55,236 nt of DNA from Bacteroidales bacterium (lineage in GTDB: Bacteria > Bacteroidota > Bacteroidia > Bacteroidales > UBA932): positions 1 to 55,236 of the forward strand of contig SUYL01000007.1 in NCBI GenBank assembly GCA_015060445.1, given 5' to 3'. Under the pieces are notes generated by a model. That model ran no database searches. It had not been told where the DNA came from and saw nothing but the letters and a program-made list of their open reading frames with translations. Position 1 is the stretch's first letter. Every line of letters begins with the position of its first letter. A program made the translations under genes and the position numbers. This document shows positions 2,417-53,132 of this stretch, one piece after another.

Positions 2417-2438
2417 CCATTTTCCCGACAGATAATTG

Positions 2439-2475
2439 AGGTTGGCAACAGTATATCTGATTGCCAACCTTTTTT
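2439..2475 (+). terminator. Terminator of the VanX-like gene
   Basis: AGGTTGGCAA (2439-2448) pairs perfectly with TTGCCAACCT (2461-2470), and the stem runs into a T tract (2470-2475). It lies 23 bp past the stop codon. Confidence 0.85.
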
Positions 2476-2522
2476 ATATTCCCGACAACTCTCTTCCATT
2501 AATGAATTTAATGTTCAATTCT

Positions 2523-2744
2523 TCTGCACATTCTCCGCGGGAACCAAGTACCTTCGTTCATGCCCGTCAGAGGCTGCTCGGCTGAAAAAATCATCTTGAC
2601 GGCTAACTCCTCATTTTTAGCCATCCTCCGGATGTCTAACATTCGTCAGACACACACCGTCACGAGACGATGATTTTTTCATCCTCCCTTACCGCCTCTT
2701 CCGGGAAATCACTCAGGTACTTGTTCCCTCCCCGAATGTGCAGA
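2523..2744. repeat. Long intergenic imperfect hairpin, element A
   Basis: A 222-bp stretch without a plausible gene whose two halves pair over most of their length. Paired blocks from outside in: 2523-2533 with 2734-2744 (11 bp, perfect), 2539-2553 with 2715-2728 (14 bp with one bulge), 2584-2595 with 2669-2680 (12 bp, perfect) and 2597-2602 with 2657-2662 (6 bp). Inside, GGCTA/TAGCC (2601-2605, 2618-2622) and TGTCT/AGACA (2633-2637, 2648-2652) could form two small hairpins, though the first overlaps the last stem by two bases. It could be a structured RNA or a degenerate mobile palindrome; the transcribed strand is unclear. Confidence 0.7.
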
Positions 2745-2770
2745 CCAATAGTACTATTCAGTAAATAATA

Positions 2771-3001
2771 TATTTGCAGAATTTGTAACGGAAGGGAATA
2801 AAGGTCAGGTGACTCCTGGAACGGCGTAAGCAACCATTGCAGATGTGCCGTAAGATTCCCGTCTGTCTGAACAGATGCCTCTTCGTGGATAAACTGGGGC
2901 ATCTGTGAGTTAGGGAATCAGGCACAGATGCAACAGGTTGCCAGCCAGGTGGAAGGTGGAACCTGACATTTATCCTCTGTAGTGAAAAATTCTGCAAAAT
3001 A
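2771..3001. repeat. Long intergenic imperfect hairpin, element B
   Basis: A second palindrome 26 bp after element A. Paired blocks from outside in: 2776-2784 with 2987-2995, 2798-2802 with 2969-2973, 2804-2810 with 2961-2967, 2830-2835 with 2936-2941, 2837-2841 with 2929-2933, 2844-2849 with 2921-2926, 2854-2860 with 2913-2919, and 2872-2879 with 2898-2905. The order is perfectly nested, giving one rod about 110 bp long with internal bulges and an 18-nt loop. Open frames here are short and look like by-products of the symmetry. No protein gene is supported between 2417 and 3135. Confidence 0.7.
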
Positions 3002-3080
3002 CTCATTTTATATGAAGGAATAATTTATGTATAGGATTGAGGGGCAGTATTGATTAGTTAGTGGTATGTTGGGATATAAT

Positions 3081-3111: not shown

Positions 3112-3135
3112 ATTTATGCGGATTGTCGGCAGGGA

Positions 3136-4853: not shown

Positions 4854-4861
4854 TAAATTTG
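4854..4861 (+). promoter_or_regulatory. -7 box of recQ, overlapping one TGTCGGGA octamer
   Basis: TAAATTTG fits the -7 consensus and lies 20 bp before the recQ ATG. Its last two bases are the first two of the octamer at 4860, so any protein bound to the octamer would sit on the transcription start. No TTTG is seen at the ideal upstream distance. Confidence 0.45.
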
Positions 4862-4880
4862 TCGGGAGTAAAAATGTCAT

Positions 4881-6776
4881 ATGATTAAGGGGATTTTAAA
4901 GAAATATTGGGGATATGATGAATTCCGGCCCATGCAGCAGGAGATAATTTCTTCAGCACTTGCGGGAAAGGATACACTTGCACTCATGCCTACAGGTGGG
5001 GGAAAATCTGTATGTTTCCAGGTTCCCGCTATGGCAAGGGAGGGTATATGCCTTGTAGTTTCACCCCTTATTGCTTTAATGAAAGACCAGGTGCAAAATC
5101 TTGGAAGTAAGGGTATTAAGGCCCTGGCTGTCTATTCGGGAATGACATACAGCCAGATTGACGCAGCACTGGACAATGCAATTTATGGAGATTACAAATT
5201 TCTCTATGTATCTCCCGAAAGGCTCCACACGGGAATATTCAGGGAGAGGGTAAAGAAGATGGATATCAATTTCCTGGTTGTGGATGAAGCGCACTGTATT
5301 TCACAATGGGGTTATGATTTCCGTCCTGCATATCTGGAAATCAGCAGGATAAAGGAACTGATAAATGATGTGCCGGTAATTGCCCTTACCGCCACTGCCA
5401 CAAAGTCAGTTGCTGAGGATATAATGAGGATACTGAATTTTTCGGAGCCTAATGTCATTTCTTCTGGATTTGAAAGGAATAATCTCTCATATGTGGTTAG
5501 AAATGTGGATGATAAGTTTGGCAATATGCTCAAGATATGCAATGGGGTGCCGGGTACTGGAATCGTTTATGTGAGGGAGAGGAAAAGATGTGAGGAGATT
5601 TCATCATTTCTGCGCCAAAATGGCATAACTGCGGACTTCTACCATGCGGGGTTGAGCAAAGAACTGCGCAATGCCAAACAGGATTCATGGATAAAGGGTC
5701 AGACAAGGGTAATTGTTGCGACCAATGCATTTGGAATGGGAATAGACAAACCGGATGTGAGGTTTGTAATCCATTATGACATGCCAGATTCGCTTGAAGC
5801 ATATTTCCAGGAAGCGGGGAGGGGAGGACGCGACGGGAAACGTTCATACGCCACAATGTTATGGAACAGTACAGACATTTCCCGCCTCAGGCAGATACAT
5901 ACAATTTCTTTTCCCGACATCCAGTACATAAAGGAGATTTACCAGAAGGTCTTCATCTATCTCAACATTCCTTATGAAGAGGGGAAGGAGAGTGTGAACA
6001 AATTCAATCTTGTGGAGTTTTCCAAGAAGTATTCACTCAACTCTGTTTCTGCCTATTATGCAATTAAATACCTGGAACAGGAGGGGTACTGGGAACTTAC
6101 GGATGAACTTGACAACCCGTCAAGAATAATGTTTGCAGTTGGAAGGGATGAACTCTACAAAGTTCAGATAGACAATCCGGCACTTGACAGTTTCATAAAA
6201 TCCATTCTGAGGATATATACTGCATTATTCTCCAGATTGACCCCTATTGATGAAGAGTACATTGCCAGGGTAACTATGGATTCACCTGCAGGGGTTAAGG
6301 AAAAACTGAAACAACTTTCGGGGCTGAGGATTATCAAATATATTCCAAAAGTGCGTACACCTCTCATTATCATGAACTATGAGAGACTTGTTGAGTCAAA
6401 CCTGTACATATCCCAAAAGAGATACCGGGAGAGAAAAGACCTATATCAGAAAAGGATAGAGAGCATCATTTCATACGTTAAGGAGGATAGCGTATGCAGG
6501 AGCAGGATGCTTATAGACTACTTTGGCCAGGAGGTTAAAGATGAATGCGGAATATGTGATGTATGCATAAGGAACAGGAACAATTCAAATTTCTCTTCCC
6601 GACAATTGGCTGTAAGGAAGCATATTCTGGAACTGCTCGGCAAAAATGGCAGGATGAAGATTGGGCAGATTGAAACTATAGCGGCAGATGAATACAAATT
6701 CTACCTGCAAGTACTCCGGGAAATGATTGACAATGGGGAGGTATCCGCCAACGGAGAATATATTGAAAGGAAATGA
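4881..6776 (+). CDS. recQ: ATP-dependent DNA helicase RecQ
   Basis: 3'-5' superfamily 2 DNA helicase acting in recombination and fork repair. The order is helicase core then RQC domain. Walker A is MPTGGGKS (36-43), the DEAH box is at 135-138 and motif VI lies in QEAGRGGRDG. The RQC zinc site has Cys539, Cys556, Cys559 and Cys562. At 631 aa there is room for a winged helix but only a short tail, so a complete HRDC domain seems absent; many Bacteroidota RecQ paralogues are like this. The gene is alone on its strand and ends two bases before the maf stop, so the two genes are convergent with essentially no space between them. Confidence 0.96.
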   Translation: MIKGILKKYWGYDEFRPMQQEIISSALAGKDTLALMPTGGGKSVCFQVPAMAREGICLVVSPLIALMKDQVQNLGSKGIKALAVYSGMTYSQIDAALDNAIYGDYKFLYVSPERLHTGIFRERVKKMDINFLVVDEAHCISQWGYDFRPAYLEISRIKELINDVPVIALTATATKSVAEDIMRILNFSEPNVISSGFERNNLSYVVRNVDDKFGNMLKICNGVPGTGIVYVRERKRCEEISSFLRQNGITADFYHAGLSKELRNAKQDSWIKGQTRVIVATNAFGMGIDKPDVRFVIHYDMPDSLEAYFQEAGRGGRDGKRSYATMLWNSTDISRLRQIHTISFPDIQYIKEIYQKVFIYLNIPYEEGKESVNKFNLVEFSKKYSLNSVSAYYAIKYLEQEGYWELTDELDNPSRIMFAVGRDELYKVQIDNPALDSFIKSILRIYTALFSRLTPIDEEYIARVTMDSPAGVKEKLKQLSGLRIIKYIPKVRTPLIIMNYERLVESNLYISQKRYRERKDLYQKRIESIISYVKEDSVCRSRMLIDYFGQEVKDECGICDVCIRNRNNSNFSSRQLAVRKHILELLGKNGRMKIGQIETIAADEYKFYLQVLREMIDNGEVSANGEYIERK

Positions 6777-6778: not shown

Positions 6779-7369
6779 TTATAAGGCCATTTCCTTAAGT
6801 TTATTGTACAAAATGTGGACAGGGAGCCCCATTACATTGAAAAAAGAGCCCTCAATCCCTCTTATACCGGCGTACCCAACCCAGTCCTGTACACCATAAG
6901 CACCGGCCTTGTCGTAGGGTTTATATGTATCTATATAATATTCAATCTCTTCTGCAGAAAGATGTCCGAAATGGACATCCGTTGATGCTGTAAATGTAAT
7001 GATTTTGGAGTTGCTTCTCAGACACACACCGGTAAGCACTTTATGTTTGTTGTCAACCAGTTTTGCAATCATCCGTATTGCATCATCCCTGTCTAAAGGT
7101 TTACCCATTATCTCATCACTGCAAAGCACCATGGTATCTGCAGTAATGAGTATCTCATCATCCTCAAGTTCCCTATGGAATCCATATGATTTTCCTATGG
7201 CCATATTCTCGGGTATCTGGGTAAAGGAAATATTGTCGGGAAGGGACTCCTCAAATGAATTAACAGTATCAACGGTAAAATCAACCCCCAATCCTGCAAG
7301 AAGTTCCCTTCTGCGGGGGGATGCGGAACCAAGGACAATCCTTTTGCCTTTGAGCAATTTGTTAAGCAT
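6779..7369 (-). CDS. maf: Maf family nucleotide pyrophosphatase
   Basis: Predicted dTTP/UTP-type nucleoside triphosphate pyrophosphatase that removes non-canonical or excess nucleotides. The 196-aa protein has the signature LGSASPRRRELL (13-24), the Lys/Asp motif in ILITADTMV and the GxxxDKAGAYGVQ block. It is the last gene of a three-gene minus-strand cluster (DUF2520, KdsC, Maf), with only 6 bp between the kdsC stop and its ATG, so the genes are almost surely co-transcribed. The KdsC-Maf pairing recurs in Bacteroidota. Confidence 0.92.
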   Translation of the reverse strand: MLNKLLKGKRIVLGSASPRRRELLAGLGVDFTVDTVNSFEESLPDNISFTQIPENMAIGKSYGFHRELEDDEILITADTMVLCSDEIMGKPLDRDDAIRMIAKLVDNKHKVLTGVCLRSNSKIITFTASTDVHFGHLSAEEIEYYIDTYKPYDKAGAYGVQDWVGYAGIRGIEGSFFNVMGLPVHILYNKLKEMAL

Positions 7370-8818: not shown

Positions 8819-11311
8819 ATGAAAAGGAAATATAACATAACCGGAATGAGTTGTGCGGCCTGTTCAATGAGGGTAGAAAAGGCTGTCTCACAAGTGGAAG
8901 GTGTTGAGAGTTGTTCTGTAAATCTCCTTACAAATTCCATGATTGTAGAGGGTAATGCAGGAGATTCTCCAATTATAGAGGCTGTAGTTGGTGCAGGATA
9001 CGGTGCTTGTGTTTCTGAAGAGAGAAAATTACAAGATAATCAACCCCATACCGAGAACAGTAAAGATCTGCAGAATCTTAAAGCTAGGGTGTCATTATCT
9101 TTGATTTTACTCTTTGCACTCATGTACCTCTCTATGGGACATTCCATGTGGGGCTTTCCATTACCTCCGTTCCTGGAGTACAATCCGTTGGCAAATGCCT
9201 TGCTCCAGATGGTATTGGCTGCCGGCATTATGGTTGCAAACATGAAATTCTTCACCAGCGGCATAAAAGGTATTCTACAGGGAGCCCCCAATATGGATAC
9301 ACTCGTATCTCTGGGTTCATCTGCAGCATTCATATACAGTCTCTGCCTTTTGTTCATGATGTCAGATGCGGCAATTAATGGCAACATTCAACAGATACAC
9401 ACTTTGTTGCACAATATGTATTTTGAATCTGCAGCAATGGTTCTGGCATTGGTTACAATTGGTAAAATGCTTGAAGCAAGGGCAAAAGGAAAGACTACGG
9501 ATGCTTTGGAATCCCTCAAGGGGCTCGCTCCAAAGATGGCAGTTGTAATGAGGGATAATGCTGAAATTTCAACTCCTGTTGGGGATATTGTTAAAGGTGA
9601 TATTTTTATAGTAAAACCCGGAGAGACAATTCCTGCAGACGGAACAGTAATTGAAGGTTTCAGCAATATTGATGAATCGGCACTCACAGGTGAAAGCATC
9701 CCTGTTGAGAAAATTGTCGGGAATAAAGTTTCCCAGGGGACAATCAACCTGTTTGGAGTATTGAAGTGCACTGCCGACAAAGTGGGGGAGGAGACCCTCC
9801 TTTCGCAGATTATCAATATGGTAAATGATGCTGCCGCAACAAAGGCACCAATTGCAAAGACTGCAGATAAGGTTGCTGGGGTTTTTGTACCGGCAATTAT
9901 TGCAATTGCGGTCATTACAGTGCTGATCTGGCTCATTTGCGGTGCCCAGATTGGATATGCCCTGGCAAAAGGAATCTCCGTACTCGTAATTAGTTGCCCT
10001 TGCGCCCTTGGCCTTGCAACTCCAGTTGCAATAATGGTGGGAACAGGTGTCGGCGCCCGAAACGGAATCCTCTTCAAGAATGCATCAGCAGTTGAAATGA
10101 CCGGTAAAATCAAATCTGTTGCACTCGACAAAACCGGTACCATTACTAAAGGTGAGCCGGTTGCAACTGATATTCTTACTGCCCCTGAATATGGGAAGGA
10201 AACCTTTCTCAAATATGCAGCCGCACTGGAGAGGTGCAGCGAGCATCCACTTGCCAAAGCCATCTGTAAACTGTGGCCATATGCATCGCCGGAGTATCAG
10301 ATATCAGATTTTCAGGCACTGCCCGGAAATGGAGTTTCCGCAATGGTAGATGGCAAACTGCTTCAGGGAGGAAGCATTATGTTCATGAAAGACAAATGCA
10401 ATATTCCCGACAAATTCCAAAGGGAAGCAGATCTCCTTGCATATAAAGGAAAAACTCCACTTGCCTTTGCCATAGATGGAAAATTCCTTGGAATCATTGC
10501 AGTTGCAGATACATTGAAAGATGACAGCATTGCAGCCGTTGAACAATTGAAGTCATTGGGTATTGCTCCTGTAATGGTAACGGGGGACAACAAGGGAACT
10601 GCGGAATACATTGCATCAATTGTTGGTATAGATTCCGTATATTCCGGAATTCTTCCGGGACAAAAAGAGGGTGTTGTTATGGAATTGCAGAAAAATGGCA
10701 GTACAGCAATGGTAGGAGACGGAATTAATGATGCTCCCGCTCTGGCAAGGGCAGATGTAGGTATTGCCATTGGTGCCGGTTCCGATATAGCAATTGATTC
10801 TGCAGATGTGGTTCTGCTTAAAAACTCCCTTTCAGATGTACCGGCAGCCATAAAATTGGGGAAGGCTACATTAAAGAACATACATGAGAACCTCTTCTGG
10901 GCTTTCAGTTACAATATAATTGGAATCCCTCTTGCTGCAGGGGCTTTTGTCCCCTTGACAGGATGGGAACTGAATCCCATGTTCAGTGCCGCAGCAATGA
11001 GCATTTCAAGTTTTCTTGTGGTATCAAATGCACTGAGACTCAACTTTGTAAAAATTCACAATAAAAATAACGGCTACAATAAAAACAATACTGAAATTAA
11101 GATTGAAAAGATGGAAAAGAGAATGAAAATTGAGGGTATGATGTGCCCTAACTGCGAGAGACATGTAAAGAGAGCCCTCGAGGCCATCCCTGGGGTAGAA
11201 TCTGCAGTTCCGGATTTCAAACAGGGTATTGCAGTTGTAACCCTTTCTGCGGAAGTTCCAGATGAAACACTCAAGGCTGCAGTAGAAGAAGAGGGCTACA
11301 AAGTACTGTAA
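8819..11311 (+). CDS. copA: Copper-translocating P1B-type ATPase with N- and C-terminal HMA domains
   Basis: Exports Cu(I) from the cytoplasm. Domain order in 830 aa: HMA metal-binding domain with CAAC (Cys12, Cys15), eight-helix membrane domain, the CPC ion site (Cys393-Pro-Cys395), the phosphorylation motif DKTGT (Asp437), the ATP-binding SEHPLA motif and GDGINDAPALA. After the last helix comes an Asn/Lys-rich linker and a second complete HMA domain (about 764-830) with MMCPNC (Cys776, Cys779). That C-terminal HMA resembles a free CopZ-type chaperone fused to the pump, and no separate copZ lies nearby. Upstream is an AT-rich region with TATTTGC about 20 bp before the ATG. A strong terminator follows. 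Confidence 0.95.
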   Translation: MKRKYNITGMSCAACSMRVEKAVSQVEGVESCSVNLLTNSMIVEGNAGDSPIIEAVVGAGYGACVSEERKLQDNQPHTENSKDLQNLKARVSLSLILLFALMYLSMGHSMWGFPLPPFLEYNPLANALLQMVLAAGIMVANMKFFTSGIKGILQGAPNMDTLVSLGSSAAFIYSLCLLFMMSDAAINGNIQQIHTLLHNMYFESAAMVLALVTIGKMLEARAKGKTTDALESLKGLAPKMAVVMRDNAEISTPVGDIVKGDIFIVKPGETIPADGTVIEGFSNIDESALTGESIPVEKIVGNKVSQGTINLFGVLKCTADKVGEETLLSQIINMVNDAAATKAPIAKTADKVAGVFVPAIIAIAVITVLIWLICGAQIGYALAKGISVLVISCPCALGLATPVAIMVGTGVGARNGILFKNASAVEMTGKIKSVALDKTGTITKGEPVATDILTAPEYGKETFLKYAAALERCSEHPLAKAICKLWPYASPEYQISDFQALPGNGVSAMVDGKLLQGGSIMFMKDKCNIPDKFQREADLLAYKGKTPLAFAIDGKFLGIIAVADTLKDDSIAAVEQLKSLGIAPVMVTGDNKGTAEYIASIVGIDSVYSGILPGQKEGVVMELQKNGSTAMVGDGINDAPALARADVGIAIGAGSDIAIDSADVVLLKNSLSDVPAAIKLGKATLKNIHENLFWAFSYNIIGIPLAAGAFVPLTGWELNPMFSAAAMSISSFLVVSNALRLNFVKIHNKNNGYNKNNTEIKIEKMEKRMKIEGMMCPNCERHVKRALEAIPGVESAVPDFKQGIAVVTLSAEVPDETLKAAVEEEGYKVL

Positions 11312-11339: not shown

Positions 11340-11362
11340 CTATTATTGTTGTCGGGAAGAGG

Positions 11363-13093: not shown

Positions 13094-13095
13094 AA

Positions 13096-14112: not shown

Positions 14113-14142
14113 TTTCAATCAAATTTATGTTTAGTGAATCTG

Positions 14143-15018
14143 TTATCCAATAGTGTGGTTGGCAAGAAGTTCTGAAATCAAGGAGTCAATATCCTCTGCA
14201 GAAGCGGTAAGTTTCTTGGCCTCTTTAGCCTGGAATACTATATTCTCAACTTTCTTCACTTTTGTAGGTGAACCTGCCATACCGTAACTGCTGTCCTCTC
14301 CTCCAACATCTGCGGTACCCCACTCGGTAATTTTAAGATAAGGGTAGTCTGCAAGTGACAGAAGATAGTTTGCTCCTTCTGCAGTATCTTCAGTAACTGT
14401 TCTTGCATATTTGTATTTCATAACCTGTTTGGCGTGACGAGGACGGCATGGTGCCGCAGTAGCATGTACAGTTACAAGACATGGAAGGGTACATGAAACA
14501 ACTTCCACACCCCTCTCAAGCCTTCTCTTGATTACAACTTTTGAATCTGAAATCTCCTGAATCTTCTCAGCATAGGTAACCTGTGGGATGCCAAGTTTCT
14601 CAGCAACCTGTGGACCTACCTGTGCAGTATCACCGTCAATTGCCTGACGTCCTGCAAGGATGATGTCGGGATTAATCTTCTTCACTGCCTGTGAAAGGGC
14701 ATATGAGGTTGCAAGTGTATCTGCACCTGCAAATTTCCTGTCTGTAAGGAGGACTCCGCCGTCTGCGCCTCTGAAAAGTCCTTCCCTTATAATATCCGCA
14801 GCCCTGAAAGGTCCCATTGTGAGCAACAGTACCTCAGAACCCGGATTCTGGTCTTTAATATACAATGCCTGCTCAAGAGCATTCATGTCTTCTGGGTTGA
14901 AAATAGCCGGAAGTGCTGCCCTGTTTACTGTTCCTTCCGGTGTCATAGCATTTTTACCGACATTTCTGGTGTCCGGCACCTGCTTGGCCAGAACAACAAT
15001 CTTCAATTTTTTTGTCAT
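14143..15018 (-). CDS. etfB: Electron transfer flavoprotein subunit beta
   Basis: Beta subunit of ETF and first gene of the etfB-etfA-acd operon. At 291 aa it starts with KIVVLAKQVPDTRNVG and contains the nucleotide-binding VLLLTMGPFRAADIIREGLFRG, the ILAGRQAIDGDTAQVGPQVAE segment and the RRLERGVEVV block, all standard ETF-beta features. The start is the ATG at 15018, 168 bp from the divergent valS. One TGTCGGGA octamer lies inside the gene at 14664, read here as Asn-Pro-Asp. Confidence 0.94.
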   Translation of the reverse strand: MTKKLKIVVLAKQVPDTRNVGKNAMTPEGTVNRAALPAIFNPEDMNALEQALYIKDQNPGSEVLLLTMGPFRAADIIREGLFRGADGGVLLTDRKFAGADTLATSYALSQAVKKINPDIILAGRQAIDGDTAQVGPQVAEKLGIPQVTYAEKIQEISDSKVVIKRRLERGVEVVSCTLPCLVTVHATAAPCRPRHAKQVMKYKYARTVTEDTAEGANYLLSLADYPYLKITEWGTADVGGEDSSYGMAGSPTKVKKVENIVFQAKEAKKLTASAEDIDSLISELLANHTIG

Positions 15019-15186: not shown

Positions 15187-17940
15187 ATGGAAATTCCAGC
15201 AAAATATAATCCGGCCAACATTGAGGACAAATGGTACGAATACTGGTTGGAAAATAAATTTTTCCACTCAGAACCAAATGATAAAGAGGCATATACAATT
15301 GTTATACCTCCACCCAATGTAACTGGTGTACTTCACATGGGACACATGTTGAACAACACAATTCAGGACATTTTGATTAGAAGAGCAAGAATGAAGGGTA
15401 AAAATGCCTGCTGGGTACCGGGTACTGACCACGCATCAATTGCTACTGAAGCCAAGGTTGTAAAAAAACTTGCAGAGCAGGGAATAAAGAAAAGTGACCT
15501 TACCAGGGATGAGTTCCTCAAGCACGCATGGGAGTGGACAAACGAGCATGGTGGAATTATTCTCAAGCAGTTGCGCAAACTTGGTGCAAGTTGTGACTGG
15601 GACAGGACTGCATTCACTATGGATGAGGAGAGAAGTTCCAGCGTTATAAAGGTATTTGTTGACCTATACAACAAAGGGCTGATTTACCGTGGTCTCAGAA
15701 TGGTAAACTGGGATCCTAAGGCACAGACAGCACTCAGCAATGAAGAGGTTATATATAAGGATGAAAAGAGCAAACTTTACTATTTGAGATATTATGTAGA
15801 TGAGCAGCCGGGCTGTACAGATGGTGAAGAGTCGGGAGCAGTTACACTCAACCCTTCAGATCCATTTGATCCTGCAGTAAAACACCAGATACTGCACAGG
15901 GATGCAGACGGCAGGAGATATGCTGTTGTTGCCACTACCCGTCCTGAGACAATTATGGGTGATACTGCAATGTGCATAAATCCCAAAGACCCTAAAAACA
16001 CCTGGCTCAAAGGGAAAAAAGTGATTGTTCCACTTGTAAACCGTTCAATCCCTGTAATTGAGGACAGATATGTGGAGATAGAGTTTGGTACAGGATGTCT
16101 AAAAGTAACCCCTGCACACGATACAAATGACTACATGCTGGGCAAAACCCATAATCTTGAGACAATAGACATTTTCAATGCAGATGCAACGTTGAGTGAG
16201 GCAGCAGGTATGTACATAGGTATGGACCGTATGGATGTCCGCAAACAGATTGTGAAGGATCTTGAGGCTGCAGGGCTTATGGAGAAAGTGGAGGATTACC
16301 AGAACAAGGTTGGATACTCGGAGAGGAATTCCGATACTGCAGTAGAGCCAAGACTCTGCATGCAGTGGTTCCTGAAGATGCAGCATTTTGCCGACATTGC
16401 ACTTCCACCTGTAATGAACGATGAACTCAAGTTCTATCCTGTAAAATACAAGACCACATACCACAACTGGCTGGACAATATCCAGGACTGGTGTATCAGC
16501 CGCCAACTTTGGTGGGGTCACCGCATCCCAGCATATTTCCTTCCCGACAATGCTGAAGGTGAAGAGAAATTTGTTGTTGCAGAAACTGCAGAGAAGGCTC
16601 TTGAACTTGCAAAAGCCATCCCTGGATATGAAAATATAACAATAGCGGATCTAAGACAGGATGATGATGCCCTTGACACATGGTTCTCTTCTTGGTTATG
16701 GCCACTTTCATTGTTCAACGGTATAAGCAATCCTGGAAATGATGAGATCAATTATTATTATCCTACAAGTGACCTTGTAACAGGACCTGATATCATTTTC
16801 TTCTGGGTTGCCAGAATGATTATGGCTGGCTACGAGTACAACGGCACAATGCCATTCAGAAATGTATATTTTACAGGTATTGTAAGGGACAAACTTGGAC
16901 GCAAGATGTCCAAGTCGCTCGGCAATTCACCTGATCCTCTTGAACTGATTGCAAAATACGGTGCCGATGCTGTACGTATGGGAATGATGCTCTCCGCACC
17001 TGCAGGAAATGATATCCTATTTGATGAAGCATTGTGTGAGCAGGGCCGTAACTTCAACAACAAGATATGGAATGCATTCCGTCTTGTCAGCGGCTGGAAT
17101 GTGGATGCAAATGCGCAGCAACCGGAGAGTGCAGTAGTTGCAGTCAAATGGTTCAATGCAATGCTTGCCAAAGTAAGTGCCGAGATTGAGGACCTCCTTT
17201 CAAAATACAGATTGTCTGAGGCACTGATGGCCATATACAAACTCTTCTGGGACGATTTCTGTGCATGGTACCTTGAAATGGTAAAACCAGCATATGGTGC
17301 CGGAATTGATCCTCAGACCTACAAGGCCACAAAGGGATATTTTGACTCACTCCTGAGAATATTGCATCCGTTTATGCCGTTCATTACCGAGGAGTTGTGG
17401 CAGAATCTGGAACAGCGTAAACCTGGCGATACAATCATGTTCCAGAATGTTGCCGCTGGAGAAGAGTATGATGCCGCACTTCTTGAACAATTTGAAAATG
17501 CTTCACAAATTGTCATGAATGTGAGAAATATCAGGCAATCGAAACAGATTTCTCCTAAGGAGTCTCTTGAGATATTTGCCAAGACACCATACAACCGCTC
17601 TATGGATGCAGTAATAATGAAACTTGCAAACATTTCAAAGATAACTGCAGTTGAAACATTTGATGCAGATGCTCAGGGTGCAAACTTTATGGTAAAGACC
17701 AGCGAATTCTTTGTTCCGCTCAATGAACATATTAATGTAGAGGAGGAGGTTGCAAAGATGAGGGCTGAGATTGAGTATTATGAGAAGTTCCTCAAACAGG
17801 TTAACGGCAAACTTTCCAATGAGAAGTTTGTAAACAATGCACCGGCTAACGTTGTTGCCATGGAGAGGAAGAAGCAGTCTGATGCAACAACAAAACTTGA
17901 GAACCTTCATAACAGAATTGCTTCTTTGTTGAAAAATTAA
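15187..17940 (+). CDS. valS: Valine--tRNA ligase
   Basis: Class I aminoacyl-tRNA synthetase that charges tRNA-Val and edits misactivated threonine. The 917-aa chain has the HIGH-type motif HMGH (50-53), a CP1 editing insertion with [12 protein letters not shown], the KMSKS motif (573-577), an anticodon-binding helical domain ([13 protein letters not shown]) and a C-terminal coiled coil rich in Glu, Lys and Leu that grips the tRNA. It is a single essential gene, with a good promoter upstream and a hairpin downstream. Confidence 0.98.
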
Positions 17941-27983: not shown

Positions 27984-28011
27984 TTCTTCCCGACAATGAT
28001 TTGTGCAAAAT

Positions 28012-31131: not shown

Positions 31132-31160
31132 CTTTATATCTGTATTAATGCGTTAATGGA

Positions 31161-31922: not shown

Positions 31923-31928
31923 AGTCCG

Positions 31929-33008: not shown

Positions 33009-33020
33009 ATCCGTTGATTT

Positions 33021-33242: not shown

Positions 33243-33266
33243 ATCTATAATATTTAAAATTATCAA

Positions 33267-33434: not shown

Positions 33435-33436
33435 TG

Positions 33437-39498: not shown

Positions 39499-40332
39499 AT
39501 GGATGAAAGAATAAGCAGGATATATGAGGCTGCAGAATATATCAGAAATATAATAGGAGAAGAAAAACCGGTTGCAGGAATAGTTCTGGGAAGCGGATTG
39601 GGGAAACTTGCAGATGTAATTGAGGATAAAAAGATTATCCCGTACCGCGAAATACCGCATTTTCCGGCATCTACTGCTGTTGGACATAAAGGAAACTTCA
39701 TTGCTGGAAAACTTGGAGGAAAATTTGTTCTGGCCATGCAAGGGCGATTCCACTATTATGAGGGGTATCCTATGGAGTATGTAACACTGCCAATAAGGGT
39801 AATGAAAGTGCTCGGAATTGGGTATCTGTTTGTGTCAAATGCAGCTGGTGGGGTCAACTATAATCTTAAGATAGGCGACCTCATGGTAATTGCAGACCAT
39901 ATCAACCTATTGCCCAATCCACTGATTGGGCCTAATATGGAAGAGTTCGGTCCCCGTTTTCCCGACATGACACACCCGTATGACCTTTCATTGATCCGGA
40001 TTGCAAATGAAATTGCATCAGAGATGGATATAGAATTGAAAAAAGGTACATATCTTGCAAGTACAGGTCCAACATACGAAACCCCTGCTGAATACAAATA
40101 CTTCCGCACAATTGGAGCAGATGCTGTAGGGATGTCAACAATACCTGAGGTAATAGTTGCCAGACACAGCGGGATACCTGTATTTGGAGTATCGGTAATT
40201 ACAAATGAGGCACATGACAACTACGCAGAGGATTATGCCAATGACGGGGATGATGTTGTAAAGGCTGCTGATGCAGCAGCCGACAAAATGACCTCAATAT
40301 TTATATCAATGATTGAAAAACTGGAGCAATGA
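39499..40332 (+). CDS. Purine nucleoside phosphorylase (class II)
   Basis: Cleaves inosine and guanosine with phosphate to base and ribose 1-phosphate. From the ATG at 39499 the protein has 277 aa. Family motifs are [11 protein letters not shown] (phosphate loop), [36 protein letters not shown] and [20 protein letters not shown] with MSTIPEV. The Asn in [12 protein letters not shown] is typical for 6-oxopurine recognition. The neighbouring deaminase gene makes methylthioinosine a plausible further substrate. The stop overlaps the start of the next gene (ATGA). Confidence 0.92.
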
Positions 40333-41763: not shown

Positions 41764-42231
41764 TCAGAAAACAAGTTTGCTGGGGTTGAACCCTCTTGTA
41801 CGGAGAAACTGGAAAATATGGTCGAGAGTTGTCCCGTCCATTATCCTGTTCCTGGACATTATCCACAAATATTTTCCATTGTTGCCGCTTACTACAGAGT
41901 AAGAATAGTCTGGTCCCAGCATAATGATATTGTAATCTGAGGCAAACCACCAGAAGAAACTCACTTTAAGATGTGCCGGTTTCCCCGGATTCGGTTGGAA
42001 AGCTGTACCAAAGATCTTTTTCTCCTTACCGTGCCTGTTCCTTCCAGAATTCTCAACTTTTACTGTTTTGTCGGGAAGGAGAGTGTATCTTGTCCAAACA
42101 TCTACAAGTCCCCTTTCAAATATGTTCTCATACCTTGCAATCTCATACCAGACACCCATATATTTTTGGATATCAAAATTTTCTACAGTTCTATTGTGGC
42201 TAGTCTTTGGGGTAATGTCTGTTGTTTCCAT
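41764..42231 (-). CDS. Lipocalin family protein
   Basis: A 155-aa lipocalin with the GxW signature in YMGVWYEIARY and the later MLGPDYSYSVV and LWIMSR strands, closely following the bacterial Blc type. Unlike E. coli Blc it has no lipoprotein signal in the frame seen (METTDITPKTS), so it may be cytoplasmic or use an unrecognised route. Lipocalins bind fatty acids or other small hydrophobic ligands. The gene stands alone on its strand apart from the two lipoprotein genes upstream. Confidence 0.88.
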   Translation of the reverse strand: METTDITPKTSHNRTVENFDIQKYMGVWYEIARYENIFERGLVDVWTRYTLLPDKTVKVENSGRNRHGKEKKIFGTAFQPNPGKPAHLKVSFFWWFASDYNIIMLGPDYSYSVVSGNNGKYLWIMSRNRIMDGTTLDHIFQFLRTRGFNPSKLVF

Positions 42232-42279: not shown

Positions 42280-42798
42280 TTACCGGATAAATTGATCAAG
42301 GAGACTTGAGATTTCTACATCTGTAGGGAGGGGAGAATCGTCAAAACAGGCAACTATTCTTCCCGACAGATTTCCTATATATATACGGGGAATTGTGTGG
42401 GAAGCAAAGAGATTATATACTGCACGGTTGGTCTGTGCAGAATATGGCATTGTGAAGCCATTGTCTTTCCAGTATGCTGAAACTGTATCATTGCCCTCTT
42501 CCCTGCTGATAATTGCAAATTTTACACCTCTTGTTGAATATCTGTCATATATACTCTGAATGTATGGCAAAGTGGAGTTACAGTCCGGGCACGCAGTATT
42601 GAAAAAGACAATGCATGAGACTCCACTGCGCAAACTTTGTCCGGTTACAGTTGAGCCGTCATTCATCTCTACAGAGAAATTTGGGATAAGATCACCTGTA
42701 CGTATGATAGAACCGTCTTGAGAAAGGTTGTCACTGGAGCAGGAAAAAAGGGAAAGAAGCGGGATTGCAGATAATATGAGGAATAATATGTTCTTCAT
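42280..42798 (-). CDS. Thioredoxin-like lipoprotein (TlpA/ResA-like)
   Basis: A 172-aa envelope protein. It begins with a lipoprotein signal (FLILSAIPLLSLFSCSS, acylated Cys about residue 19) and has a thioredoxin fold with the redox motif in FNTACPDCNSTLP, a CPDC variant of CxxC. A cis-Pro region lies near HTIPRIYIGN. It probably reduces or exchanges disulphides in periplasmic proteins. The NlpE-like gene is 23 bp upstream on the same strand, so the two may be expressed together. Confidence 0.88.
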   Translation of the reverse strand: MKNILFLILSAIPLLSLFSCSSDNLSQDGSIIRTGDLIPNFSVEMNDGSTVTGQSLRSGVSCIVFFNTACPDCNSTLPYIQSIYDRYSTRGVKFAIISREEGNDTVSAYWKDNGFTMPYSAQTNRAVYNLFASHTIPRIYIGNLSGRIVACFDDSPLPTDVEISSLLDQFIR

Positions 42799-44908: not shown

Positions 44909-45509
44909 ATGCTTTGAATTCAAATTTTTCTCCCATCAGTATCCTTGGAAGATTGCAGCCTATATAATTGCCAACTATAGACCAGAACCACGCACCCAAA
45001 ATCCACCATTCCCATTTTCCTGTAATTGCTGCAAGAGAATAATAGAAAGCATCTGCAACACAGTGGGGTAAACCGCACAAAATGAATACTGGAACTCCAA
45101 ACAGAAGTGGAAGGTAATGCTGCTTGCGGGCACCATAAACGGCCAAAGTCATTATCATTCCTGTTCCCGACGATGTCACTGCAAGTGAATGCCAAGATGC
45201 TGATTGTCGGGAAGAGAGGATAGTTGCAAGATTGGAACTTACTGCATCACTGGCTACATACTGTGCAATGTATGCGGCTATAAGGCATCCTATTGCATTT
45301 GCAGTGAGCATAAGGATGAGTTTAGGAAATTCTCTGAATGGCAGGAAACCGGATTTGCCGGTATAGAGTTGTGCCCCGCACATTACAACACAAAGGAGTC
45401 CGAATGCAAAAAGTACAGCACCTGGCAAACCGCCCACTCTAAGATAAACAAGTCCGCCGGTACCTATAAGAATTCCTGCAAAGACAGACATGGAAATAAA
45501 GTTTCTCAT
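44907..45509 (-). CDS. Formate/nitrite transporter (FNT)-like membrane protein
   Basis: A 200-aa protein from the ATG at 45509 with about six membrane helices. Segments AGILIGTGGLVYL, CGLPHCVADAFYY and SIVGNYIGCNLPR resemble the FNT signature helices of FocA and NirC. It is 60-80 residues shorter than typical FNT channels and the usual GNxxGG reads GNYIGC, so it is a divergent member. It could carry formate, nitrite or hydrosulfide. It runs divergently from the PIG-L gene, 67 bp apart. Confidence 0.72.
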   Translation of the reverse strand: MRNFISMSVFAGILIGTGGLVYLRVGGLPGAVLFAFGLLCVVMCGAQLYTGKSGFLPFREFPKLILMLTANAIGCLIAAYIAQYVASDAVSSNLATILSSRQSASWHSLAVTSSGTGMIMTLAVYGARKQHYLPLLFGVPVFILCGLPHCVADAFYYSLAAITGKWEWWILGAWFWSIVGNYIGCNLPRILMGEKFEFKA

Positions 45510-48804: not shown

Positions 48805-48820
48805 CACATAATTGGAAAGA

Positions 48821-50407
48821 ATGGAAGAAACTAGGCTTCTTTTGGGAGATGAGGCTATTGCTTTGGGTGCCGTACATGCCGGAATCAGCGGAGTGTACGC
48901 TTATCCGGGGACCCCATCTACCGAGATTACTGAATTTATACAGACATTCTCGCCACAAGTGAGAAGCAGATGGTGCACAAACGAGAAAACTGCCATGGAG
49001 GCTGCCTTGGGCATGTCCTTTGCCGGCAAAAGGGCCCTTGTTTGCATGAAACATGTGGGAATGAACGTTGCCGCAGATGCTTTTGTGAATTCAGCAATTA
49101 CAGGAGTGAACGGAGGGCTGGTTGTAGTTGCAGCAGATGACCCTTCAATGCACTCTTCCCAAAATGAGCAGGACTCCCGTTTTTACGGCAATTTTGCCAT
49201 GATTCCAATATTGGAACCATCATCCCAGCAGGAGGTTTACGGGATGATGAAATATGCTTTTGAACTCTCTGAGAGGGTAAAACTTCCGGTTCTTCTGAGA
49301 ATAGTTACCCGTCTTGCACATTCACGTGCCGGGGTACGTATAACAGATGCTATTGCACAGAATCCTCTGAATCCAAGCAATGAGCGTTCAAACTGGGTAC
49401 TTCTTCCAGGAAATGCAAAGAAACAATATGCATCTCTTGTAAAGAAACAGGATCTCCTGAAACTTGAATCAGAGAACTCACCTTACAATATTGACACAGA
49501 TTTTGAAAAGTCGGGGCAGGGAATCATAGCATGCGGAATAGCGTTCAATTATGTAATGGAGAATGACCCTACGGTTCCTGTACTCAAAATTTCGCAATAT
49601 CCCCTTCCAGAGGCAACAATAAAAGAATTTGCCCGCAGATGCAGCAGTATTCTTGTTGCTGAGGACGGGCAACCTGTTGTGGAAAACCTTGTAAAAGGGA
49701 TTCTGGGAAACGGATACCCTGTTAAAGGGCGACTTACAGGAGATCTTCCACGAATGGGAGAACTTACTCCCGACAATGTAGGAGCAGCAATGGGAATTGT
49801 ACAGGAGAAGAGTTTCAGCACTTCTGAAAATGTAATGCCACGCCCTCCTGCACTATGCCAGGGATGCGGACACAGGGATGTATATAATGCCCTGAATGAA
49901 ATACTCAAAGGATATGAAGGGGCCAGGATTTTTGGAGATATCGGGTGCTATACCCTTGGCGCACTTCCTCCTTTCAGGGCAATTGACAGTTGCGTTGATA
50001 TGGGTGCCTCAATAACCATGGCAAAAGGGGCTGCAGATGCAGGAGTTTTTCCGGCTGTTGCAATTATTGGAGACTCAACATTCACCCATTCCGGAATGAC
50101 CGGGCTCCTTGATGCAGTAAACGACAATGCAAACATTACTGTAGTAATATCGGATAACCTCACTACTGCAATGACCGGCGGGCAGGATTCTGCCGGAACA
50201 AGCAAATTTGAAGCAATATGCATTGCCTTGGGTGTTGAGCCCGAGCATGTAAGGGTGGTTGTACCTATAGCCAAGAATATGGAAGAGATTACCCGTACAA
50301 TAAAGGAGGAAATTGAGTATAAGGGTGTTTCTGTAATTATTCCAAGAAGGGAATGCATTCAGACACTTAACCGCAAACTACGTAAAAAAAGGGCAGCGCA
50401 ACAATGA
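48821..50407 (+). CDS. iorA: Indolepyruvate:ferredoxin oxidoreductase alpha subunit, lacking the C-terminal ferredoxin domain
   Basis: Converts aryl-2-oxoacids from Trp, Phe and Tyr into aryl-acetyl-CoA with reduced ferredoxin. From the ATG at 48821 it has 528 aa; an in-frame TTG nine bases earlier is less likely. It has the TPP pyrimidine domain (GVYAYPGTPSTEITEFI), the C-terminal TPP domain (GDSTFTHSGMTGLLDAVNDNANITVV) and CQGCGHRDVY. Typical IorA proteins continue with about 80 residues holding two [4Fe-4S] clusters; this one stops after PRRECIQTLNRKLRKK. Electrons must therefore pass to a separate ferredoxin. It is coupled to iorB by an ATGA overlap. Confidence 0.93.
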   Translation: MEETRLLLGDEAIALGAVHAGISGVYAYPGTPSTEITEFIQTFSPQVRSRWCTNEKTAMEAALGMSFAGKRALVCMKHVGMNVAADAFVNSAITGVNGGLVVVAADDPSMHSSQNEQDSRFYGNFAMIPILEPSSQQEVYGMMKYAFELSERVKLPVLLRIVTRLAHSRAGVRITDAIAQNPLNPSNERSNWVLLPGNAKKQYASLVKKQDLLKLESENSPYNIDTDFEKSGQGIIACGIAFNYVMENDPTVPVLKISQYPLPEATIKEFARRCSSILVAEDGQPVVENLVKGILGNGYPVKGRLTGDLPRMGELTPDNVGAAMGIVQEKSFSTSENVMPRPPALCQGCGHRDVYNALNEILKGYEGARIFGDIGCYTLGALPPFRAIDSCVDMGASITMAKGAADAGVFPAVAIIGDSTFTHSGMTGLLDAVNDNANITVVISDNLTTAMTGGQDSAGTSKFEAICIALGVEPEHVRVVVPIAKNMEEITRTIKEEIEYKGVSVIIPRRECIQTLNRKLRKKRAAQQ

Positions 50408-50979
50408 AAAAGGATATAATACTGTCGGGAGTAGGAGGACAGGGAATACTTACAATTGCAACAATAATTGGTGATGCCGCTGCAGTTGCAGGGTTGTACC
50501 TCAAGCAGGCTGAAGTTCATGGAATGAGCCAGAGGGGTGGAGATGTGCAGTCCAATCTGAGGCTTTCTACTGAAACAATATATTCAGACCTTATAAAGGA
50601 GGGAGGGGCTGACCTCATCATTTCCATGGAGCCTATGGAGGCCCTGAGATATCTGCCATATCTGCATAAGGATGGGACAGTAATTACATCATCCCACCCT
50701 TTCAGGAATATCCCTGACTATCCTGAACTGGAGAAAATTGATGAGGAACTGGCATCGCTGCCACATTCGGTTTCTCTGCCAATTGAGGATATGGCAGCAG
50801 AAATCAATTTACCAAAAAGTGCCAATGTTATCCTGTTGGGGATGGCTGCCAAATATATAGAGATTCTTTCTCCAGAGCAATTGAGGGAGAGCATAAAGAG
50901 GATATTTGCACCTAAAGGGGAGCAGATGGTTGAGAGCAACCTCAAGGCTTTTGATTACGGATTCAACTCTGTCAAATAG
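50404..50979 (+). CDS. iorB: Indolepyruvate:ferredoxin oxidoreductase beta subunit
   Basis: The 191-aa gamma-like subunit of the IorAB enzyme. It begins DIILSGVGGQGILTIATIIGD, the nucleotide-binding signature shared with the gamma subunit at 30580, and has AEVHGMSQRGGDVQSNLRL. The ATG overlaps the iorA stop by 4 bp, indicating coupled synthesis of a 1:1 complex. An octamer lies in its first codons. The paaK-like acyl-CoA ligase that often follows is absent; a convergent orphan gene follows instead. Confidence 0.93.
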   Translation: MKKDIILSGVGGQGILTIATIIGDAAAVAGLYLKQAEVHGMSQRGGDVQSNLRLSTETIYSDLIKEGGADLIISMEPMEALRYLPYLHKDGTVITSSHPFRNIPDYPELEKIDEELASLPHSVSLPIEDMAAEINLPKSANVILLGMAAKYIEILSPEQLRESIKRIFAPKGEQMVESNLKAFDYGFNSVK

Positions 50980-50986
50980 ATCAGTA

Positions 50987-51637
50987 TCAGTATCCCAAGG
51001 ATTTGAAGAAGAACTCCCTGCGTAGATTGTCGGGAATGGCATATTTGTCTATACGTGAGTTTATTCCCTCGTAAAAGAGATTGTCGTGCAGATTGCACAC
51101 ATATAGGGTGTCTGTTTGTGACAGATAGAGGGTGTTGTATCTGATATCAAGATTATCCTGCAGACTTAAAGTATATTCAAGTGCCACTTCAACCTGAGTA
51201 AGATTGAGAAGATCCCGGCAGAATACAAACAGCCCGAACTCATTGAAATTTCCATAAAAGCCTGATGCAACTTTCTCAACTTTGCTTTTGAGAATACGCT
51301 TGAGCGGCTGGGCAAGTAACCAGTATTCCTCCTCCTTATAACCGGTATAATTCAATCCAGGCAAACCGTAAGCATATCCGGTATCAACTATTCTCTGCAT
51401 ATCTTCCTTCTGAGATTCGTTAATATGCATCCCGGCCAGTTCCTTAAGCAGTTGGTTTGCGTTATGGCGGTCGGGTTCCATGGCACGGGTAACCTCAATG
51501 CCAAGAGAATTGTCGGGAAGCTGGAGATCCGGCCTGTCCTTATTCTCAAGTGCACTAAAACGGGTACCAAGGATAGTTTCCAGGGTAAGATGTGCATAAC
51601 GCTCAAAAAAACAGGTGTCAAATTTTCTATAGGCCAT
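50987..51637 (-). CDS. Uncharacterised protein, possibly nuclease-like
   Basis: A 216-aa soluble protein that I do not recognise. Near the N-terminus the pattern ENKDRPDLQLPDNSLGIEVT (about 31-50) resembles the acidic core of PD-(D/E)xK nucleases: an Asp, then a short strand ending in Glu-Val, with Thr where Lys is usual. The rest is mixed alpha/beta with many Tyr and Leu. It has no signal peptide or membrane segment. It is convergent with iorB (gap 7 bp) and divergent from the second M28 gene. Two octamers lie within it. Confidence 0.7.
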   Translation of the reverse strand: MAYRKFDTCFFERYAHLTLETILGTRFSALENKDRPDLQLPDNSLGIEVTRAMEPDRHNANQLLKELAGMHINESQKEDMQRIVDTGYAYGLPGLNYTGYKEEEYWLLAQPLKRILKSKVEKVASGFYGNFNEFGLFVFCRDLLNLTQVEVALEYTLSLQDNLDIRYNTLYLSQTDTLYVCNLHDNLFYEGINSRIDKYAIPDNLRREFFFKSLGY

Positions 51638-51707
51638 ACTGCAGTTATTTCTGATGTAAAGTTACAGATTTTTAACTACATTTGTATAGGATAAAACACA
51701 TTAAAAA

Positions 51708-53132
51708 ATGAAAACTGTTGCTGCTTTAACTATGGCATTACTGGTAATGGGGAGTTGTGCTCCAAAACAGGAAGTACCTGCCCCAAGTGAACAATACTAC
51801 AGAGATGTGGTAAAGGAACTCTCTTCCGCAGAATATTTTGGAAGGAGCAATTATATGAACGGCACAATTAAAGCCGGAGAATTCATTATTGGAGAAATTG
51901 AGAAACTTGGAATTGGAACAATTCCTGCAGATGTAATTGAGAAGAGTTGGGAAGGGAAGAGCAGACCTGAACTCCACTCCCTGCAACCGGAATTCAAGAG
52001 CCTTATTACCCCTTGTAATGCCCGCAGATGGGAAGGGGCACCGGAAAGCAGACTTGCATACCTGCAACACTTCAACCACCCTCTGAATGCACAAAGGGGC
52101 AAAGTGGAGTTGACAGTTGACGGAAAGACTCTACGCAATACAATTGACTATACACTCAAGGAGTTTTCACCTTCATTTGAGGGAGAACTTGAAATTGTAT
52201 ATGTAGATGACAAATACATTACTCCCGACAAATTCTGTGATTATCTGAACTCCGGAAAATTCCAGGACAAGGCAGTTGTAATAAACTGGGAAAAGTTTAA
52301 GGAGACCATGTACACATACCCAGGAATAGAGGTTTACAAGACATACTTTGTACCCCTTACAAAAGTAGGGGCACTTATCTGCAAAGGGGAACTGCTCCCT
52401 TATTTCAAATCTCGCAACCATTTCAATACCCCTATGCCGGTATTCATAGTGGACGAATCATTCCCGGAGAACGCCAAAAAGGTGAAGATTGAGACACATG
52501 CAGAGATGGTTGACAATGATGCACACAACATTATTGCCTACATTCCTGGAAAATCAAAAGGCAATGAACATTTCATCCTTGCATGCCACTACGACCACCT
52601 TGGCATTTGTGGCCCCGATGACATCTTCTATGGTGCAAATGACAACTCTTCAGGTACAGCAATGCTTTTGAACCTTATGAGACATTTCAAAGCCAACCAG
52701 CCTGAACACTCAATTATATTCATATTCTTTGATGCTGAGGAGAACAACCTTCTTGGATCATTCTTCTATGCAGACAATCCGCTTCTTCCTCTTGAGGATA
52801 TCAAATACTTTGTAGAACTGGATATGATAGGAGACAACGGAGAGAACATCTACTGCCAGATTTCAGACCAGGGGGAGAGAGGTCTTGAGTGCCTGAATGT
52901 AATAAACGCTTCAATGGAGAAACCGTTCGCAAAACTGGACCGCCATCCAATGGATGATTATGCAGACCATTACCCGTTCGGGTTGAAGGGTGTTCCGGCA
53001 ATCTATATTGAACTGGACGGTGATACCAACAAGAATTACCATTCACCAAGGGACACTTACGAAAATTTCCACTCATGCAATTTTGAGAGAATCTTCAATC
53101 TTGTAACAGGATTTGTAGAGAATTACAAATAA
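51708..53132 (+). CDS. M28 family metallopeptidase, lipoprotein
   Basis: A 474-aa peptidase anchored by a lipoprotein signal (MALLVMGSCAPKQE, acylated Cys about residue 17). Metal ligands are in ACHYDHLG (His, Asp), GANDNSSG (Asp), FFDAEENNLLG (two Glu), VELDMIGDNG (Asp) and a C-terminal His in NYHSPRDTYENF. The site is complete. It differs from the peptidase at 46496 in length and N-terminal half, so the two probably have different substrates. TACATTTG about 20 bp upstream is a likely -7 box. A small gene follows after 3 bp. Confidence 0.92.
   Translation: MKTVAALTMALLVMGSCAPKQEVPAPSEQYYRDVVKELSSAEYFGRSNYMNGTIKAGEFIIGEIEKLGIGTIPADVIEKSWEGKSRPELHSLQPEFKSLITPCNARRWEGAPESRLAYLQHFNHPLNAQRGKVELTVDGKTLRNTIDYTLKEFSPSFEGELEIVYVDDKYITPDKFCDYLNSGKFQDKAVVINWEKFKETMYTYPGIEVYKTYFVPLTKVGALICKGELLPYFKSRNHFNTPMPVFIVDESFPENAKKVKIETHAEMVDNDAHNIIAYIPGKSKGNEHFILACHYDHLGICGPDDIFYGANDNSSGTAMLLNLMRHFKANQPEHSIIFIFFDAEENNLLGSFFYADNPLLPLEDIKYFVELDMIGDNGENIYCQISDQGERGLECLNVINASMEKPFAKLDRHPMDDYADHYPFGLKGVPAIYIELDGDTNKNYHSPRDTYENFHSCNFERIFNLVTGFVENYK

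Follow-up and report, generated by a model that had tools for sequence, protein, structure and literature searches.

An Abundant, Strand-balanced Octamer in a Bacteroidales Genus Forms Clade-specific Dialects and Resembles a DNA Uptake Sequence

The window analyzed here is a whole stretch of 55,236 nucleotides from a Bacteroidales bacterium (contig SUYL01000007.1). It harbors a RecQ ORF and 33 exact copies of the octamer TGTCGGGA, 17 on the plus strand and 16 on the minus strand (Table 1), and these counts agreed with the original prediction. The strong over-representation claimed there was also evident upon recalculation. In 100 dinucleotide shuffles of the window, the word occurred 0.99 times on average and at most 3 times, and among all 8-mers of the window it ranked first when judged by a third-order Markov model, which gave an expectation of 1.5 copies. 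With genes picked by us from the ORFs of the window, a choice on which the frame counts depend, the copies were read as Pro-Asp (18), TCG-GGA (4), GTC-GGG (3), and TCC-CGA (2), and 6 were intergenic. The last three codon readings were as predicted, whereas 19 Pro-Asp and 5 intergenic copies had been claimed. The copies had further been described as fairly evenly spaced. This was not substantiated, because the spacing did not differ significantly from random either in the window (coefficient of variation 0.77 versus 0.96, p = 0.09) or in a 413-kb sample of the same genome (0.87 versus 0.96, p = 0.09).

Table 1. Exact copies of TGTCGGGA in the 55-kb window
Feature	Position	Strand	Context	Match
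TGTCGGGA copy	2423..2430	-	intergenic	exact
TGTCGGGA copy	2480..2487	-	intergenic	exact
TGTCGGGA copy	4860..4867	+	intergenic, upstream of RecQ ORF 4881-6776	exact
TGTCGGGA copy	5912..5919	-	within RecQ ORF	exact
TGTCGGGA copy	6597..6604	-	within RecQ ORF	exact
TGTCGGGA copy	7234..7241	+		exact
TGTCGGGA copy	9715..9722	+		exact
TGTCGGGA copy	10405..10412	-		exact
TGTCGGGA copy	11350..11357	+	intergenic	exact
TGTCGGGA copy	14664..14671	+		exact
TGTCGGGA copy	16542..16549	-		exact
TGTCGGGA copy	19276..19283	-		exact
TGTCGGGA copy	22113..22120	+		exact
TGTCGGGA copy	23868..23875	-		exact
TGTCGGGA copy	25312..25319	-	arm of inverted pair with 25347	exact
TGTCGGGA copy	25347..25354	+	second arm of inverted pair with 25312	exact
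TGTCGGGA copy	26975..26982	-		exact
TGTCGGGA copy	27319..27326	+		exact
TGTCGGGA copy	27988..27995	-	intergenic	exact
TGTCGGGA copy	31640..31647	+		exact
TGTCGGGA copy	33095..33102	+	intergenic	exact
TGTCGGGA copy	36069..36076	-		exact
TGTCGGGA copy	36309..36316	+		exact
TGTCGGGA copy	36693..36700	+		exact
TGTCGGGA copy	39960..39967	-		exact
TGTCGGGA copy	42069..42076	+		exact
TGTCGGGA copy	42361..42368	-		exact
TGTCGGGA copy	45205..45212	+		exact
TGTCGGGA copy	49768..49775	-		exact
TGTCGGGA copy	50423..50430	+		exact
TGTCGGGA copy	51028..51035	+		exact
TGTCGGGA copy	51511..51518	+		exact
TGTCGGGA copy	52223..52230	-		exact

The excess extended over the genome. The 2.18-Mb draft (87% complete) contained 950 copies of TGTCGGGA (488 and 462 by strand) versus 89 of the reversed word (46 and 43), and in the 413-kb sample the octamer was enriched 28.8-fold over a motif-masked Markov model. 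The ratio in the sample was therefore not near 1, the outcome set beforehand as refuting, but about 29-fold. One-mismatch variants were barely enriched in this sample (1.2-fold). The near variant CGTCGGGA had been noted as seen only four times, which is correct for the window; relative to expectation, however, its 50 copies in the sample, although fewer in number than those of TGTCGGGA, amounted to a 27.5-fold enrichment. Because this is close to the value for TGTCGGGA, we consider CGTCGGGA part of the motif, the fuller enriched form of which approximates YYGTCGGGARNA. The flank profile showed preferred bases at -2, -1, +7, and +9 and weak preferences up to +12. A long conserved flank was not present; thus, TGTCGGGA is not a repeat element, and a dispersed repeat was rejected as its source.

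Codon usage was evaluated by shuffling synonymous codons in the 413-kb sample. The coding sequences contained 153 copies of TGTCGGGA versus 5.9 after shuffling, a 26-fold excess that persisted in five of the six readings; the sixth was not enriched (1 versus 0.9). Codon use is therefore no explanation for the excess, as originally argued. Pro-Asp accounted for 85 of the 153 coding copies, which would favour a codon-pair preference, but confinement of the excess to Pro-Asp codons, likewise named in advance as refuting, was not seen, and the density was higher between genes (0.68 per kb) than within them (0.40 per kb). Together with the unconserved flanks, these values leave a practically negligible probability that the excess goes back to a dispersed repeat, to biased mutation, or to preferred codons or codon pairs. 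A strand-balanced distribution over the genome and a strong excess beyond codon use, both found here, are properties by which uptake sequences are recognized. Frequent inverted pairs acting as terminators are a trait of the Neisseria and Haemophilus uptake sequences, albeit not a definitional one; close pairs of TGTCGGGA were not in excess (12 neighbours closer than 150 bp, 12.0 expected). Scarcity in recently acquired mobile DNA, a further property of uptake sequences, was observed on one island: within this genome, a 20-kb conjugative transposon stretch, selected post hoc for having the lowest density among 21 pieces, carried a single TGTCGGGA where about 9 were expected.

A comparison of relatives, proposed originally as a check, did not establish conservation of individual sites, which counts against the uptake-sequence reading. 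Single copies of TGTCGGGA were not clearly better kept than composition-matched words (13 of 37, or 35%, versus 28%, p = 0.21; 9 of 27 in a smaller initial count); in the reverse direction, 13 of 30 were kept (p = 0.048). Among the 24 copies not kept, 18 differed at three or more bases.

Related genomes carried different words. TGTCGGGA exceeded 130 copies/Mb in 12 of 37 genomes of the genus and ATCGCNGAG exceeded 150 copies/Mb in 11 of 39, and no genome was rich in both. A third word, ATCGSGA, stood out in G013, G010, and G014 at 7-9 times the reversed control, G010 being rich in TGTCGGGA as well. The dialects share R-TCG-...-GA and largely track a RecQ tree of 30 genomes, with the exception of G001, which lies on a long branch. 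Such clade-specific dialects following phylogeny are also known of uptake sequences. Inside the ATCGCNGAG clade, G033 and G036 had 61-66 copies/Mb of ATCGCNGAG, as against 311-484 in the nine ATCGCNGAG-rich genomes that the tree includes from this clade. In 24 genomes from other families of the order, TGTCGGGA reached at most 85 copies/Mb, and several of them exceeded the reversed control 2-5-fold (e.g. G040, 112 versus 22; G060, 263 versus 84). A search for similar words elsewhere yielded nothing comparable in 14 of 35 loci; ATGTTAATC occurred 15 times versus 1.1 expected in four pooled Ancylomarina loci, a count inflated by orthology of the loci. The papers among the literature matches listed for TGTCGGGA looked unrelated.

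The dialects bear on two other explanations. TGTCGGGA could be the binding site of a chromosome-organizing or nucleoid protein serving DNA packing or segregation, for which the many copies on both strands, in genes and between them, with no excess of close pairs, would be suitable. Clade-specific dialects and the low density in G033 and G036 are unexpected for a core packing protein, and TGTCGGGA is unlike the segregation sites known to us, which are palindromic, polar, or clustered. We regard this function as improbable. The differences among relatives also resemble the turnover of restriction systems, as if a DNA methyltransferase or a restriction system recognized TGTCGGGA and favoured its presence. 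Restriction normally depletes its own target words, however, whereas TGTCGGGA is enriched 29-fold, and the word has degenerate flanks and is not a palindrome, which makes this explanation very improbable.

The main rival interpretation holds that TGTCGGGA acts in double-strand-break repair as a Chi-type site, where it would regulate a helicase-nuclease of the AddAB/RecBCD type, and that it has changed fast between species. Like Chi, TGTCGGGA is a frequent non-palindromic word of 7-8 bases, and its scarcity in the conjugative transposon stretch would fit. Replication polarity was analyzed in the closed genome G034 for 166 CTGTCGGGAA sites, a subset of its 750 TGTCGGGA copies. Relative to an origin placed near 0.7 Mb on the basis of a sparsely sampled GC skew, 102 sites (about 61%) pointed along the direction of replication; the best axis, at 0.64 Mb, gave 103 of 166 (permutation p = 0.018). 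A polarity of 61-62% in one closed genome is nevertheless weak compared with the roughly 75% of Chi in E. coli, and a G-rich word lying on a strand with GC skew may be enough to produce it. In the own-genome sample, the G-rich form was more common on the non-coding strand (94 versus 59). Unlike Chi, moreover, the word differs within the genus, and three dialects would require repeated shifts in the specificity of the recombination enzyme. A Chi-type function thus appears unlikely.

Competence genes, which the original prediction had suggested looking for, were found in part. ComEC was present in 38 of 39 genomes, whereas a type IV pilus/type II secretion ATPase scored over the cut-off in none of the 39. 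PF00437 matches occurred in 31 of 39, but every one fell below the cut-off, and a type IV pilus was therefore rejected. Fifteen of the 39 genomes, including all 11 rich in ATCGCNGAG, encoded both an outer-membrane-type protein (E values no higher than 0.001) and a DUF5689 lipoprotein of 338-360 amino acids. The lipoprotein is encoded adjacent to the outer-membrane-type protein, which has a CarboxypepD_reg domain and a long C-terminal part presumed to form a barrel; Pfam was run on the G032 pair and on an additional lipoprotein. All 15 lipoproteins matched the NCBIfam model for the M949_1556 lipoprotein, although far below its cut-off (57 versus 475 bits for the G032 member), and the papers among the matches listed for this gene name concern Riemerella anatipestifer. 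Among solved structures, the lipoproteins had no match and the outer-membrane-type protein had only two weak scaffoldin matches.

Neither member of the pair was found in G033 and G036, where its absence is not certain because these drafts are 78% and 86% complete. Four of the 15 pair-bearing genomes had a low density of ATCGCNGAG (57-94/Mb), and the ATCGSGA-rich G013 yielded no pair. The link between the pair and ATCGCNGAG is largely that of one clade and provides only one or two independent contrasts. No pair turned up in the genome of the window, which is 87% complete, or in any other TGTCGGGA-rich genome. Searching with a profile built from the outer-membrane-type protein retrieved a distant plug-type TonB receptor from 7 of the 24 remaining genomes, each of them rich in TGTCGGGA; all three proteins run on Pfam had a plug domain. 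In three loci (G000, G010, and G016), this protein adjoined genes that we read as aro genes and lacked a DUF5689 neighbour. Five of the 12 TGTCGGGA-rich genomes had no match (G001, G007, G009, G018, and G034). We do not regard this protein as the TGTCGGGA receptor.

Taken together, TGTCGGGA (approximately YYGTCGGGARNA) is probably a genome-wide, strand-balanced species mark working like a DNA uptake sequence. The dialects, ComEC in 38 of 39 genomes, and the scarcity in the transposon stretch strengthen this comparison, which was drawn in the original prediction; it is supported in part, because a pilus motor was not found, close pairs were not in excess, the one closed genome did show a weak replication polarity, and even spacing was not confirmed. 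A surface DNA-uptake apparatus devoid of a type IV pilus would bind the word and prefer DNA bearing it. Incoming DNA would then pass ComEC and recombine, and through this biased gene transfer new copies of the word would continually arise across the genome. In the ATCGCNGAG sister clade, the candidate receptor is the CarboxypepD_reg outer-membrane-type protein with its adjacent DUF5689 lipoprotein. We tentatively propose that Bacteroidales may recognize self-DNA through clade-specific dialects, which an outer-membrane receptor and its partner lipoprotein would read without a pilus. Such a system would have evolved separately from those of Neisseriaceae and Pasteurellaceae and would act as a genetic password limiting gene exchange between gut species.

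To our knowledge, uptake sequences are known only from two proteobacterial families, both with type IV pili. If true, the present case would be a third and independent one, in Bacteroidales, where a single genus has three or more dialects; repeated evolution of DNA self-recognition would follow, as would natural transformation in a major gut lineage. Whether the DUF5689 lipoprotein reads the dialect is a testable point. Pasteurellaceae uptake signal sequences occur about once per 1-3 kb on both strands, mostly in genes and with uneven use of reading frames, and TGTCGGGA is alike in all these respects. It differs from them in the lack of long AT-rich flanking tracts beyond about +12 and in its barely enriched one-mismatch variants.

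According to passages of PMC8459023, transformation of Riemerella anatipestifer requires ComEC, DprA, ComF, RecA, a DUF5689 protein, and a carboxypeptidase-regulatory-like outer-membrane protein, with no pilus homologues; its main text has 0 occurrences of "uptake sequence". ComEC is common to both systems, and the sister-clade pair appears, by shared domains and adjacency as opposed to a direct protein comparison, to resemble the Riemerella pair. The sister-clade pair was not found in the clade of the window. The Neisseriaceae belong to another phylum and use another word, and, as the genomes here yielded no motor for a type IV pilus, a ComP-type pilin is not expected. Their DUS, as described in passages of PMC3630211, form several dialects in one clade that are congruent with phylogeny and share the core CTG. 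TGTCGGGA is likewise a short non-palindromic word in very high excess, with phylogeny-congruent dialects around a small core, here R-TCG-...-GA.

All 33 exact copies of the octamer TGTCGGGA that the original prediction had counted in the window were confirmed, and the word had the highest z-score among the 8-mers of the window. The 2.18-Mb draft genome (67 contigs), of which the window is contig C40, contained 488 + 462 copies, versus 46 + 43 for the reversed word serving as control. Enrichment was calculated for 413 kb of this genome (the window and 20 further stretches) against a Markov model with the motif masked before training. The 177 copies found there represented a 28.8-fold excess; CGTCGGGA was 27.5-fold and TATCGGGA 7.1-fold over the model, and the one-base variants of TGTCGGGA pooled without CGTCGGGA reached 1.2-fold. 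As separate observations on the window, the palindrome ATCTTAAGAT was present at 3 places, giving a both-strand count of 6 and an excess of about 43-fold, and the redox and ligase reading frames listed in the table suggest amino-acid fermentation, as judged from sequence.

The flanks were profiled on 239 of 240 GTCGGGA cores, one being left out as too close to an end. T or C was favored at -2 and -1, A or G at +7, and A at +9 and more weakly at +10 and +12, with nothing clear further out. On our own greedy ORF calls of at least 100 amino acids, 153 copies of TGTCGGGA were coding versus 5.9 expected from synonymous shuffling; these split by reading as 85, 44, 13, 8, 2, and 1, with enrichment in five of the six readings, and density was 0.68/kb between genes versus 0.40/kb within them. 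An excess of close TGTCGGGA pairs was looked for, and pairs matched random expectation. Two copies whose starts are separated by 35 bp form an inverted pair inside a frame read as an RNA methyltransferase.

When the genome was compared with five relatives of the same dialect (76-83% identity in aligned stretches), single TGTCGGGA copies were not clearly better retained than control words, and total density was similar among these genomes (304-436/Mb). Copies come and go while the total is maintained, as expected from drive or from selection on the word anywhere. The sparsest 20-kb piece of the sample, L039, held 1 copy versus about 9 expected (Poisson p 0.0013, for a piece picked after the fact out of 21). 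It encodes a TraG-type ATPase, TraJ, TraM, and DUF4138 proteins and is a Bacteroides-type conjugative transposon, nearly motif-free.

Features located in the window and in related genomes (L, DNA stretches; G, genomes)
Feature	Location	Occurrence
Electron-transfer flavoprotein/acyl-CoA dehydrogenase, 2-oxoacid and indolepyruvate ferredoxin oxidoreductases, ADP-forming acyl-CoA ligase (ORFs by reading)	window 11363-15018, 30580-35494, 48812-50979	
Inverted pair of motif copies	window 25312-25354	
Conjugative transposon	L039 (contig C1:60001-80000)	
Outer-membrane-type CarboxypepD_reg protein + DUF5689 lipoprotein	L239 1-2379; L228-L241, L243	15/39 relatives
Large surface proteins: BACON + DUF5689 + DNA/RNA non-specific endonuclease	L244, L247, L274, L276, L277	

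The best reading of the word is a probable uptake specificity. Its main rival, a Chi-type site, appears unlikely; counted in its favor was a weak replication polarity in the closed genome G034, where 102 of 166 CTGTCGGGAA sites (a subset of 750 TGTCGGGA copies) were aligned with the direction of replication from an origin near 0.7 Mb, inferred from the GC skew of 21 short samples.

Among the 37 genomes assigned to the genus, 12 exceeded 130 TGTCGGGA copies per Mb (densities based on rounded genome sizes), and many others lay near the reversed control. When k-mers were scanned in sequence taken from the contig starts of 32 among the 37, other dominant words emerged in several genomes, of the ATCGCTGAG type and the ATCGCGAT/ATCGGGA type, and none in others; G001 showed CTGTCGTGA alongside CTGTCGGGA. 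By whole-genome counts, ATCGCNGAG exceeded 150/Mb in 11 of 39 genomes (maximum 1058 versus 36 control copies in the same genome), none of them TGTCGGGA-rich. ATCGSGA was strongest in G013 (1300 versus 143 control), G010 (1221 versus 134; also TGTCGGGA-rich), and G014 (1170 versus 164; also ATCGCNGAG-rich), and lay 1.5-4-fold above control in many genomes of both groups (344 versus 202 in the window's genome). In a midpoint-rooted RecQ tree that included 30 of the 39 genomes, the two main dialects separated, except for the TGTCGGGA-rich G001, placed on a long branch across the root from its dialect. Because RecQ of the 16 genomes on that side was 58-63% identical to that of the window, the genus is deep. 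Low-count branches occurred within both groups (in one, G015, G020, and G030; in the other, G024, G033, and G036 plus G019, G029, and G061). Judged by where RecQ lies on the contig, G006 corresponds to the public MAG RGIG399 (dairy cattle colon) and G023 to RGIG4631 (roe deer rectum). The motif and its dialects are solidly a real signal. Two further repeats were observed. Overlapping 9-10-mers in G003 (L064-L067), each counted about 16 times in 80 kb over both strands, suggest a single longer repeat, which could be a CRISPR array; the 9-mer GTTCAGATG in G015 (L102-L104; 29 in 54 kb versus 1.2 expected) may reflect an array of repeats or a further word.

ComEC was found in 38 of the 39 genomes (on contig C47 in the window's genome). 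A type IV pilus/type II secretion ATPase exceeded the cut-off in none of the 39, versus 13 of 14 control genomes. DUF5689 exceeded it in 21, as a 338-360-amino-acid frame in 15 and as larger forms in six. The gene preceding DUF5689 in G032 encodes an outer-membrane-type protein with CarboxypepD_reg, which at E <=0.001 was detected in exactly the 15 genomes that have the short form; its copies in G031 and G062 are split or partial. In L239, a gene that we read as peptidase-like follows the lipoprotein gene. All 11 ATCGCNGAG-rich genomes carry the pair, four pair-bearing genomes are ATCGCNGAG-poor, and all 24 genomes without it are ATCGCNGAG-poor (Fisher p 8e-7, yet just 1-2 independent contrasts). 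The six larger forms came from genomes of the TGTCGGGA group and of the branch sister to it, with no dialect link seen; those read in G018, G020, and G022 have an endonuclease_NS domain (Pfam, G018) or, by eye, the DRGH motif of that domain and adjoin a different TonB receptor. The BACON/DUF5689/endonuclease proteins of the table and the TonB receptor beside them, with OMP_b-brl_4 (domains of both by Pfam on the G018 copies only), possibly form a nucleic-acid scavenging system.

Among the open-access titles listed for uptake sequences together with Bacteroidetes, Bacteroidales, or Bacteroidota, none concerned such a sequence in the phylum. Dialects of uptake sequences are described for Neisseriaceae (PMC3630211). 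According to a Riemerella screen (PMC8459023), transformation genes there come without a pilus and comprise ComEC, DprA, ComF, RecA, and proteins with DUF1343 and helix-hairpin-helix domains, one of each, together with a DUF5689 protein and an outer-membrane carboxypeptidase-regulatory-like protein in the same predicted operon.
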